The notes under the pieces are model-generated. The model was given only the letters and a program-made list of their open reading frames with translations. It was not told the DNA's origin and made no database searches. DNA of 40,034 bases from an uncultured bacterium (GTDB lineage Bacteria; Cyanobacteriota; Vampirovibrionia; Gastranaerophilales; Gastranaerophilaceae). Position numbers and translations under genes: made by a program. Where the stretch lies: assembly GCA_948433295.1 (NCBI GenBank), contig CAOJDT010000008.1:1-40034 (forward strand), in the 5' to 3' direction. This document shows positions 22,464 to 40,034 of the stretch, piece by piece. Numbering within the stretch: the first letter of the stretch is position 1; every line of letters starts with the position of its first letter.

Positions 22464-23169
22464 TTAAAGCTTATACGGATAATCATCTTTGAATTCCCAG
22501 TTATCTAATCTCAAAAGTCGTCCGCAATATAAAACAGAACTATATTTACAAAGTTTTAAAACATTATCACGGTCATTTAAATTACTTGTTACAGGAGTTA
22601 CACCTTCAGGTAAATTTTTGTTTGTACTACTAATAGTATCATACTCAAACCACCAATAAGGCGAAAAATTTGCACCACGAGAAAGTAAAGAAATTCTGTC
22701 TCTACCTACCTGATTAGGGCCTTTATCTCCATTAAAATCAAAATATGCATCTAAAATAGCCCCACCTTTCCACATCATTAAACATGAACCGTCAGAAAAA
22801 TATACATAAAATATTGAAAAATGCTTTTTTGTTTTAACAACATTTTTAAAATAAGGGGCATAATAAGTATTCCAAAATATTTCAACTCCTTCTGAACCTT
22901 CTACTTTAGGAATTACCCAATCTGAATTTGATGTATTATTTTCAGCATTATACATCATTACGGCTTGCGATATAGTACTGTTAAACTTTTTAAGCCTGGT
23001 TGAATATTCGTGTTTTTTATATTTTTGAATCAGCGCCGGCAATGTCATAGCGGCGACAATGCCAATTATACCAAGGGTTATCAAGACTTCCGCAAGCGTA
23101 AACCCTTTCCCTGAGAGGAATCTAGTTTGCCCCCCCCCCCGTTTTTTCAAGTATAGCAATGTTTTTCAT
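22464..23169 (-). CDS. Prepilin-like protein with poly-G leader, out of frame as assembled
   Basis: The ATG at 23169 is preceded by a perfect GGAGG five bases away. It encodes MKNIAILEKT, then a run of 11 Gs (23140-23130), then CAA. With 11 Gs the reading frame shifts and stops after about 29 codons. With 10 or 13 Gs it continues as GGGQTRFLSGKG, cleavage, then FTLAEVLITLGIIGIVAAMTLPALI and a 210-residue pilin-like body ending NWEFKDDYPYKL. The long open frame itself can only be entered from a TTG at 23159 that has no suitable ribosome site. I read this as a contingency locus caught OFF, or a one-base homopolymer error. The leader of 22 residues fits a class III signal peptide. Role: minor pilin/pseudopilin or secreted pilin-like protein. 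Confidence 0.82.
23130..23140 (-). repeat. Poly-G (11) homopolymer in a prepilin leader
   Basis: Eleven consecutive Gs on the coding strand, placed exactly 29 nt after the A of the ATG and followed by CAA. Tract length sets whether the Shine-Dalgarno-linked start is in frame with the pilin (10 or 13 in frame; 11 or 12 not). Confidence 0.9.
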
Positions 23170-32307: not shown

Positions 32308-33345
32308 ATGCGAGCAATACAATATTACGGACCACAAAATATAAAACTTGAAAACGTTATGGTAAAACCGCCTGAAGAAGGCGAAGTTGTAGTAAAAGTA
32401 ATGTCAGCCCTGACTTGTGGTACTGACGTGAAAACTTTTCGCCGCGGACATCCTGTTTTAATAAAAAGCATACCATCAGGCTTTGGTCACGAATTTGCAG
32501 GCATTGTAGAAAAAATCGGACGCGGCGTAGAAAACCTAAAAGTCGGAGACCGTGTTGTTGCGGCAAATTCGGCGCCTTGCGGAGAATGTTTCTTTTGCAA
32601 ACGTGAAGAATATAATCTTTGCGAAAACCTTAATTTACTAAACGGTGCTTATGCGGAATACATAACCGTTCCCGCAAGAATCGTAAAGAAAAATATGCTT
32701 ATTCTGCCTGAAAATTTAAGCTTTGATAAAGCCGCGTTCTGCGAACCTCTAGCCAATGTGGTTCACGGTGTGGAAAGAACCGAAATTAAAGCGGGGCAGA
32801 CTGTCGGAATTATCGGAATCGGCCCTATAGGATTGATGTTTGCAAGACTTGCAAAACTCAAAGGCGCAAAGGTAATCGTTGCAGGCAGAAACCCTCTAAA
32901 ATTAAAAATGGCGGAAGAATTCGCGCTCGCTGATGAAATTGTGGATTTGAACAAGTATCCGAATCCCGAAAAAATCTTCAAAGAATTTACAGATGAACAC
33001 AAAGGGCTTGATGTGGCTGTAGAATGTGTAGGATTACCCGAAATTTGGGAGAGAATTTTCTCCTGCGTACGTCCGGGCGGCACCGTACACTTCTTTGGAG
33101 GATGTAAATCAGGCTCAACTGTAAGTTTCGACACAACAAAAATGCACTACGGCGATATAAAATTAATGAGCGTATTCCACCATACTCCGAAATATTTCAG
33201 AATGGCACTTGATTACATAGCTTCAGGGGACGTAGAGGTTGAAAAACTCATAACCGATACAATCGGGCTCGACAAAATCGAATGGGCTATGCAGCAACAT
33301 ATTGAGGGGAAAGCGATTAAGTTTCTCGTAAAACCGCAAAAATAA
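32308..33345 (+). CDS. Zinc-type medium-chain dehydrogenase, copy 2
   Basis: 345 residues with the same architecture as its upstream neighbour but clearly diverged. SALTCGTDVKTFRRGHP and GHEFAGIVEKIGRGVENLKVGDRV come first, then the structural-zinc Cys set PCGECFFCKREEYNLCENL, EPLANVVHGVE, and the Rossmann loop VGIIGIGPIGLMFARLAK. The C-terminus resembles threonine/sorbitol dehydrogenases. Two consecutive enzymes of this type suggest successive steps of a sugar or polyol pathway, or one enzyme made of two related subunits. A bidirectional terminator follows directly. Confidence 0.88.
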   Translation: MRAIQYYGPQNIKLENVMVKPPEEGEVVVKVMSALTCGTDVKTFRRGHPVLIKSIPSGFGHEFAGIVEKIGRGVENLKVGDRVVAANSAPCGECFFCKREEYNLCENLNLLNGAYAEYITVPARIVKKNMLILPENLSFDKAAFCEPLANVVHGVERTEIKAGQTVGIIGIGPIGLMFARLAKLKGAKVIVAGRNPLKLKMAEEFALADEIVDLNKYPNPEKIFKEFTDEHKGLDVAVECVGLPEIWERIFSCVRPGGTVHFFGGCKSGSTVSFDTTKMHYGDIKLMSVFHHTPKYFRMALDYIASGDVEVEKLITDTIGLDKIEWAMQQHIEGKAIKFLVKPQK

Positions 33346-33376
33346 AAAAAGTCCCTTACATACAGGGACTTTTTTT
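33344..33376. terminator. Bidirectional terminator between dehydrogenase and prepilin
   Basis: AAAAAAAGTCCCT pairs with AGGGACTTTTTTT around TACATAC. It lies at the stop of the plus-strand dehydrogenase and eight bases past the stop of the minus-strand prepilin, so it can serve both. Confidence 0.9.
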
Positions 33377-33383
33377 ACGAATA

Positions 33384-34370
33384 TTACAACTTGTACGGAT
33401 AGTCATCCTTAAACTCCCAGCCGTCAAATTCTAAAAGTTTAGAACAAGCTAGAGCGTCAGACTTACACTTGGAAATAATGTCATCCCTGCCTTTTTTCCA
33501 AGCTAAATTATAATAAGGACCCCATTTCGCATAAGATTGGGGATGCCAAGGACAAAACAAAAAATAAAACGTATCTCGCCCGCCACTGTTTGATGCTTTA
33601 ATACCGTTTACAAAATAAGTCCAATCTACACACATACCTAGTTTTATACGCACAACACTTCCGTCTGCAAAAAATATTGTGGTATATTTTCTCCCATTAC
33701 TATAAGGAAGAGCTTTTTCAATTTTAGAATATTTTATATACGGGGCAAAATATCGCATTATAAACGGATACGTAAATTCTATACCTTTATTATCATCATA
33801 CTGCTCATTACCATTTTCATCACGAATTAAATCGCCATTTTCATCTTTGAGTAAGTAATCGTTGCTTTTCTCCCAATACTTTGAATCCCCGTTTTCAACT
33901 TCGGACAACATAATTGCCTGAGTCATAACAGTATTAAATTTCTTTAAACGCGTTGCCGTTTCTTTTTTCTTGTAATTTGCTATTAAAGCCGGCATAGTCA
34001 TTGCAGCGACTATTCCGATTATGCCGAGTGTGATTAAGACCTCTGCCAAGGTAAAAGCGGCTTTTGCATTGTCATTCTGAAACGTGGACTGTTTCATACA
34101 ACATAAATTGTTACTGTTCAGAATCTCTGTTTCTTTCTCGTTTGTCGTTTGAGATCCTGAAATAAATTCAGGATGACCTGGATAGTTTTGCATTTTTGTG
34201 TCAGGGTGATGTGGCTCAGCCACCGTGCTTAGTGATTCTACAAGGTTCTTTCCAGAGTAGTGCTCAGACTCATAGCCAGTCAGTTCCCGTGCCTCATCGC
34301 TTTTTAGTGTCAGGGTGCTGCAACTCAGTTGCCCCCCCCCCGCAAATGCAGTCATATCAATGGTTTTCAT
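33384..34370 (-). CDS. Prepilin-like protein with poly-G tract and very long repeat-built leader
   Basis: 328 residues from the ATG at 34370. It begins MKTIDMTAFA, then GGG from a run of 10 Gs, then Q: the same 29-nt, poly-G, CAA layout as the prepilin at 22464-23169, here in frame. The pilin helix FTLAEVLITLGIIGIVAAM begins only at residue 106, so the leader is about 105 residues, far beyond a usual class III leader. Residues about 14-101 are encoded by palindromic repeats (for example GHPEFISGSQ and FQNDN). The mature part ends GWEFKDDYPYKL and has a central FADGSVVRIKLG. An internal Met at residue 92 would give a 14-residue leader but lacks a ribosome site. A weak AAGGAAAG precedes the chosen start. 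Confidence 0.78.
   Translation of the reverse strand: MKTIDMTAFAGGGQLSCSTLTLKSDEARELTGYESEHYSGKNLVESLSTVAEPHHPDTKMQNYPGHPEFISGSQTTNEKETEILNSNNLCCMKQSTFQNDNAKAAFTLAEVLITLGIIGIVAAMTMPALIANYKKKETATRLKKFNTVMTQAIMLSEVENGDSKYWEKSNDYLLKDENGDLIRDENGNEQYDDNKGIEFTYPFIMRYFAPYIKYSKIEKALPYSNGRKYTTIFFADGSVVRIKLGMCVDWTYFVNGIKASNSGGRDTFYFLFCPWHPQSYAKWGPYYNLAWKKGRDDIISKCKSDALACSKLLEFDGWEFKDDYPYKL
34071..34177. repeat. Palindromic repeat element translated within the prepilin leader
   Basis: Outer ends GTCAT (34071) and ATGAC (34177) match the free-standing element at 34826-34887. Each half is itself a hairpin: ATTCTGAA...TTCAGAAT (34073-34124, long loop) and ATCCTGAA...TTCAGGAT (34154-34174), with internal CTC/GAG junctions at 34125-34127 and 34151-34153. 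It is open in the pilin frame and contributes about 35 residues. Confidence 0.7.
34194..34341. repeat. GTGTCAGGGTG direct repeat with interchangeable hairpin, ending at the poly-G tract
   Basis: GTGTCAGGGTG-A-TG at about 34198 and GTGTCAGGGTG-C-TG at about 34309 are each followed by a 13-nt hairpin with the same TCA centre but different paired arms: GTGGC-TCA-GCCAC and GCAAC-TCA-GTTGC. The second hairpin runs straight into the ten-base poly-C/G tract. The stretch is translated as part of the prepilin leader. Confidence 0.65.
34332..34341 (-). repeat. Poly-G (10) homopolymer in a prepilin leader
   Basis: Ten Gs on the coding strand, 29 nt after the A of the ATG at 34370 and followed by CAA. 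This length keeps the downstream pilin in frame. Confidence 0.9.
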
Positions 34371-34460
34371 ACTTTTATTCTTTCCTTTCTTTTCGATTGT
34401 AAAATTTCTGCAGCTCTGCCGCTTAGGCTTATTATAAACTATTTTCAAATATTTTTCAAC

Positions 34461-34491
34461 AAAAAGACCGATTTTAAAAATCGGTCTTTTT
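34461..34491. terminator. Bidirectional terminator after the CxxC small protein
   Basis: AAAAAGACCGATTTT pairs with AAAATCGGTCTTTTT. On the minus strand it ends the small gene at 34525-34680, and it isolates it from the prepilin gene downstream. Confidence 0.88.

Positions 34492-39214: not shown

Positions 39215-40034
<820 letters not shown>

Follow-up and report, generated by a model that had tools for sequence, protein, structure and literature searches.

A probable slipped-strand phase-variable prepilin family, mostly out of frame, in a Gastranaerophilales genome

In this study, we report a very large family of prepilin genes in a genome of the Gastranaerophilales, which is probably phase variable through slipped-strand changes in a leader G tract and which, in the assembly consensus, is mostly OFF (out of frame with the pilin). 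One gene of the 40,034-nucleotide stretch analysed, hereafter called the window, is among the few ON copies. Support for a switching family comes from the gene architecture, the repertoire in genome and family, the coding ON frame, the shortage of ON copies and a slippage-like bias in tract length. The Gastranaerophilales are gut bacteria related to cyanobacteria, represented in this analysis by metagenome-assembled genomes only, and a search of the open-access literature found no earlier description of such a family in them.

According to the proposed mechanism, a shared leader, consisting of a Shine-Dalgarno site, a start codon and about ten codons, would lead into a tract of 8-15 Gs, behind which the pilin could be read from a single frame. 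If a slipped-strand event added or removed one G, the ribosome would shift into or out of that frame. At the in-frame length (G10 in the window gene) the prepilin would be made, and with one extra G (G11, the commonest state in the source genome) translation would yield a mini-ORF, usually ending a few codons past the tract. Under this mechanism tract lengths would change within populations, ON genes would make pilins, and selection, whether by phage or host recognition or through the cost of many pilins, would hold most copies OFF in most cells.

The window gene and its neighbours

The window gene lies on the minus strand, with its ATG at 34370-34368 and a tract beginning 29 nt from the A of the ATG. 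The ten Gs (34341-34332) are followed by CAA, the whole ATG-29 nt-G10-CAA arrangement occupying 34370-34329, and are in frame with a type IV prepilin starting at FTLAEV, as the earlier note had described. From ATG 34370 the reading frame stays open as far as the stop at 33384 (328 aa and the stop codon) and reads MKTIDMTAFAGGGQLSC...NAKAAFTLAEVLITLGIIG...DDYPYKL, NAKAAFTLAEVLITLGIIG being part of the prepilin. The same open frame extends further upstream to ATG 34568; 34370 is the likely start, since ATG 34568 lies beyond a perfect inverted repeat and a TTGAAA-17-TATAAT site (Table 1). The promoter argument is one of position and not of count, because shuffled sequence gives about as many sites in the scan. 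Palindromic repeats of the HPEFISGS type, of which similar stretches occur in other leaders, sit between tract and pilin and leave the ON frame unbroken; they resemble the in-frame repeat insertions known from Rickettsia.

Table 1. Features of the prepilin genes in the window (strand "." where none applies)
Feature	Position	Strand	Basis or remark
Likely promoter, TTGAAA-17-TATAAT	34431..34459	-	11/12 consensus matches
Perfect inverted repeat upstream, likely end of preceding transcription unit	34461..34491	.	inverted-repeat structure
Leader, start codon plus 29 nt up to tract, MKTIDMTAFA	34342..34370	-	32 homologous places in genome
G10 tract, ON length for window gene	34332..34341	-	sequence
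Putative translated stretch from tract to pilin, 276 nt, open in ON frame only	34056..34331	-	contains palindromic HPEFISGS-type repeat near 34150-34180
Mature prepilin, 223 aa from FTLAEV	33387..34055	-	stop 33384-33386
Inverted repeat with T-rich arms, 3' of gene, likely terminator	33343..33377	.	inverted-repeat structure
Leader of second tract-bearing copy, MKNIAILEKT	23141..23169	-	sequence
G11 tract of second copy, ON length plus one G	23130..23140	-	sequence
Mature prepilin of second copy, 212 aa, reachable from ON frame only	22467..23102	-	sequence
Further family prepilin, leader lost at contig end	39215..39976	-	sequence

A second copy on the minus strand shows the same order (ATG 23169, 29 nt, G11 at 23140-23130, CAA) and is out of frame with its own FTLAEV, which agrees with the earlier observation of an OFF copy of identical spacing. 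Runs of 8 Gs are expected 0.16 times in the window, so that the tracts are beyond chance. At the right end of the window stand 52 Gs in a row (39983-40034), upstream of a prepilin whose coding strand there would be C; this run is probably a sequencing artefact, dark cycles having been called as G once sequencing reached the tract, and comparable C runs stand at the start or end of many contigs.

The window protein carries a class III signal (G/A before FTLAEV) and a hydrophobic helix; singly it falls just below the Pfam cut-off, and PF07963 was matched at the genome level. An AlphaFold model (mean pLDDT 89.5) predicted a helix at residues 3-55 and a beta-rich head. Sequence search matched pilins over the helix, and a Foldseek comparison of the model with the PDB gave no significant match. 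In an alignment of 36 paralogues the N-terminus was nearly invariant and the head variable. Among the parts of the assembly machinery, PF00437 was searched and four such ATPase genes were found in the genome.

Repertoire in the genome and the family

The pattern ATGAAA-23-G7 occurs at 32 places in the 1.96 Mb genome (Candidatus Gastranaerophilales) and nowhere in the reversed control. The PF07963 profile identified 138 prepilin-type matches, upstream of which a tract of 7 or more Gs was found in 57 (two of them, C66 and C122, in contig-edge sequence of artefactual look), none was visible near contig ends in 38, and none was present in 43. The survey covered the stretches around pilin and leader matches, and at least one further tract-bearing prepilin (C2:52531) was missed by the PF07963 model. 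The leaders fall into several classes, whose starts lie about 19-36 nt ahead of the tract and nearly always have a recognisable Shine-Dalgarno site. Twelve of 13 genomes in the genus hold further copies, as do 56 of the 146 family genomes sampled; in other genera the leaders are unrelated, the design is alike, and they likewise stand before prepilins. The genome-wide family proposed in the earlier note is thereby borne out, with its 57 tract-bearing prepilins, its 32 places with the 29-nt leader and its copies in genus and family.

In relatives, the same kind of leader also precedes a few glycosyltransferase-like genes, in frame at L228 and L235 and before genes with their own start at L237 and L293. 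Directly after the tract, many copies of the source genome carry near-perfect short palindromes with differing arms (CAGACTGAGTCTG, CTGACTGAGTCAG, CAACTGAGTTG), a hint of a hairpin adjoining the tract. An Rfam search of seven loci gave no match.

The sequence separating tract and pilin, at most 454 nt long, has the properties of coding sequence in one frame. Across 56 copies the pilin frame held 4 stops in 2,729 codons, all in one copy, as against 232 in 2,677 and 251 in 2,702 in the other two frames (together 483 in 5,379). Of 24 such stretches of at least 150 nt, 23 were stop-free in the pilin frame and none in either of the others. The ON frame thus appears, from its stop content, to be really translated, and because no internal Shine-Dalgarno start was found in the pilin frame in 50 of 57 copies, translation most likely enters through the tract. 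The tract accordingly is a repeat lying within the reading frame, past the start codon and ahead of the pilin, as in translational phase variation.

Across the genome, leader class does not track pilin similarity. The window pilin is 68% identical to the pilin at C6:15831, whose leader class differs, and many other pilin pairs of more than 55% identity also mix leader classes, which suggests that leaders and pilins recombine. The neighbouring genes L255 and L256 of genome G005 have almost identical promoters, leaders and pilin N-termini, with differing bodies and with tracts of G12 and G10.

Frame states and tract lengths

For the state calls, the start codon of each copy was picked by Shine-Dalgarno score. 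A miscalled start codon was considered and rejected: the Shine-Dalgarno-ATG arrangement is consistent, and in the classes checked by eye no other frame leads open into the tract. All lengths are those of the assembly consensus, the named relatives being metagenome-assembled, and minority states are hidden in them; so read, 5 of 55 copies in the source genome were ON, the window gene included, 47 had the ON length plus one G and 3 plus two. The earlier note had expected tract length and state to vary among copies in the genome and its relatives, and a count per copy found this, with lengths mostly of 9-12 Gs in the source genome and both in-frame and out-of-frame states present (5 ON and 50 OFF in the genome; 18 ON and 173 OFF across the family). 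The split is uneven: in-frame copies are rare and the window gene is an exception.

Among 191 fused copies in 15 genomes of the family, the 18 ON copies (9%) compare with 37.7 ± 4.2 after shuffling of lengths within genomes (G005, G006 and G009 pooled), and none of 5,000 shuffles gave a count as low as 18; the copies are related by descent and leaders have been exchanged, so that these counts overstate independence. The claim that the tract is under selection is supported, on other grounds than the note gave: the stop-free ON frame and the shortage of ON copies favour it, and the spacing shared to the base, on which it had leaned, does not, the leaders being homologous. Shared spacing as a sign of convergent selection was dropped as the main argument, since homologous leaders reflect mainly the shared descent of one cassette.

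The bias towards one G over was also present in G007 (21 of 26), G001 (17 of 20) and others of the genus, and in G033, of another genus, all 13 copies were one G short. Should ON lengths be avoided, a tract would be left to move within the pair of OFF lengths flanked by ON lengths. Counts for these pairs (shorter:longer) were 0:11 for 8/9 Gs, 6:21 for 9/10, 12:6 for 10/11, 80:4 for 11/12, 20:1 for 12/13 and 10:1 for 13/14, OFF copies favouring the OFF length nearest about 10 Gs. In Campylobacter jejuni tracts, insertion is favoured at G8-9 and deletion at G10-11 (PMC8224891), and C. jejuni slippage rates predict the order of our counts, closely for the longer gaps and more poorly for the shorter. 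The lean towards about 10 Gs fits slippage that lengthens short tracts and shortens long ones, a reading formed post hoc, after the data. Such a bias accounts for changes in direction that a fixed frameshift would not give, but not for the choice of gap by leader family, and it leaves the near-uniform G11 of the leaders of G010 and G011 (45 of 48), which precede pilins with their own start, unexplained. In some genomes, as in these leaders and in G033, the offset is more uniform than simple random switching would lead one to expect, which counts against the phase-variable reading.

A different reading, which we regard as unlikely, holds that selection favours the out-of-frame length as the working state, with dozens of pilins in each cell expressed at a low and noisy level through G-tract slippage or gated by the mini-ORF. 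If true, it would be a new mode of control for a large surface repertoire, and not classical phase variation. Its first form, a shade less probable again, takes the out-of-frame length as normal and has ribosomal frameshifting or slipping of RNA polymerase produce low, noisy expression of many pilins at once. In its favour, a near-uniform OFF state within several genomes goes together with an ON frame free of stops. A universal +1 rule, and with it programmed frameshifting, was suggested by the genus and weakened by the -1 offset in other genera; the direction differs by genus and by leader class within one genome (G078, G049), where programmed frameshifting would have one fixed direction at a defined slippery site. 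Two-way transcript slippage is compatible with the differing directions.

In the second form, which we consider distinctly improbable, the OFF-length mini-ORF would itself be selected, as a leader peptide or as a ribosome-position switch over the downstream pilin. At L197-L226 and L258-L286, in G010 and G011, pilins that have a start of their own follow a G11 mini-ORF, a hairpin and a CCTCCG lying 39 nt past the tract. When this anti-Shine-Dalgarno CCTCCG was blocked in folding, the predicted access of the pilin's site rose from 0.16 to 0.66 (41 of 43), which suggests that the hairpin would hide the pilin's ribosome site and that the arrangement is possibly a ribosome-position switch; a codon-position test on these leaders gave no support for a coding long frame. 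Most pilins of the source genome, however, are without a start of their own, and nearness of the OFF-frame stop after the tract, also considered as a selected trait in its own right, does not decide the state.

That assemblies miscall tract length by a constant amount and most genes are truly ON is very improbable: sequencing does fail at tracts, many contigs ending there in long C or G runs that we infer to be two-colour sequencing artefacts, but offsets of +1 and -1 occur in different leader classes of the same genome, lengths of 9, 10, 11 and 12 each hold the same offset from their own frame, separate assemblies agree, and two glycosyltransferase-like genes behind such tracts are in frame.

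Known systems and significance

The poly-G/C loci of C. jejuni are alike in having intragenic G tracts, of 7-13, that switch frame with the length-dependent biases given above, and each strain has 12-29 such genes, linked to modification of the cell surface (PMC8224891); in a large set of C. jejuni and C. coli genomes the ON share is close to the neutral-drift expectation (PMC6321876). The source genome differs in its at least 57 tract genes, nearly all prepilins with shared leader cassettes, and only 9% of copies are in frame in the family. Neisseria meningitidis likewise has many repeat-bearing genes in one genome, with length variation supported for 115, but these genes serve a mixture of functions, and the majority of their repeats are expected to modulate expression or change isoforms and not to switch translation on and off (PMC5084427), whereas the Gastranaerophilales tracts are predicted to switch translation of one family.

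Compared with known type IV prepilins and pseudopilins (PF07963; DUF6613, PF20318), the present proteins share the processing motif and long N-terminal helix and differ in the long pre-sequences, reaching about 150 codons, that follow the tract and are predicted to be translated, and in a head lacking a significant PDB match. The pilE/pilS system of Neisseria also keeps many variant pilin sequences within a genome, and in it promoterless silent copies recombine into one expression locus. Each tract-bearing copy in our family, in contrast, has its own Shine-Dalgarno site, start and tract and so is not a silent copy of that kind, though leaders are exchanged between pilins. The picture is as if of a silent library of pilin genes, few of them switched on.

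If the phase-variable reading is true, few repeat-switched repertoires of a single gene family would be as large, and this one would belong to a lineage distant from the pathogens studied for such loci. The parallel copies would then constitute a natural experiment, in which a single assembly shows both ON depletion and length bias, so that the balance of slippage and selection may be estimated without culture.
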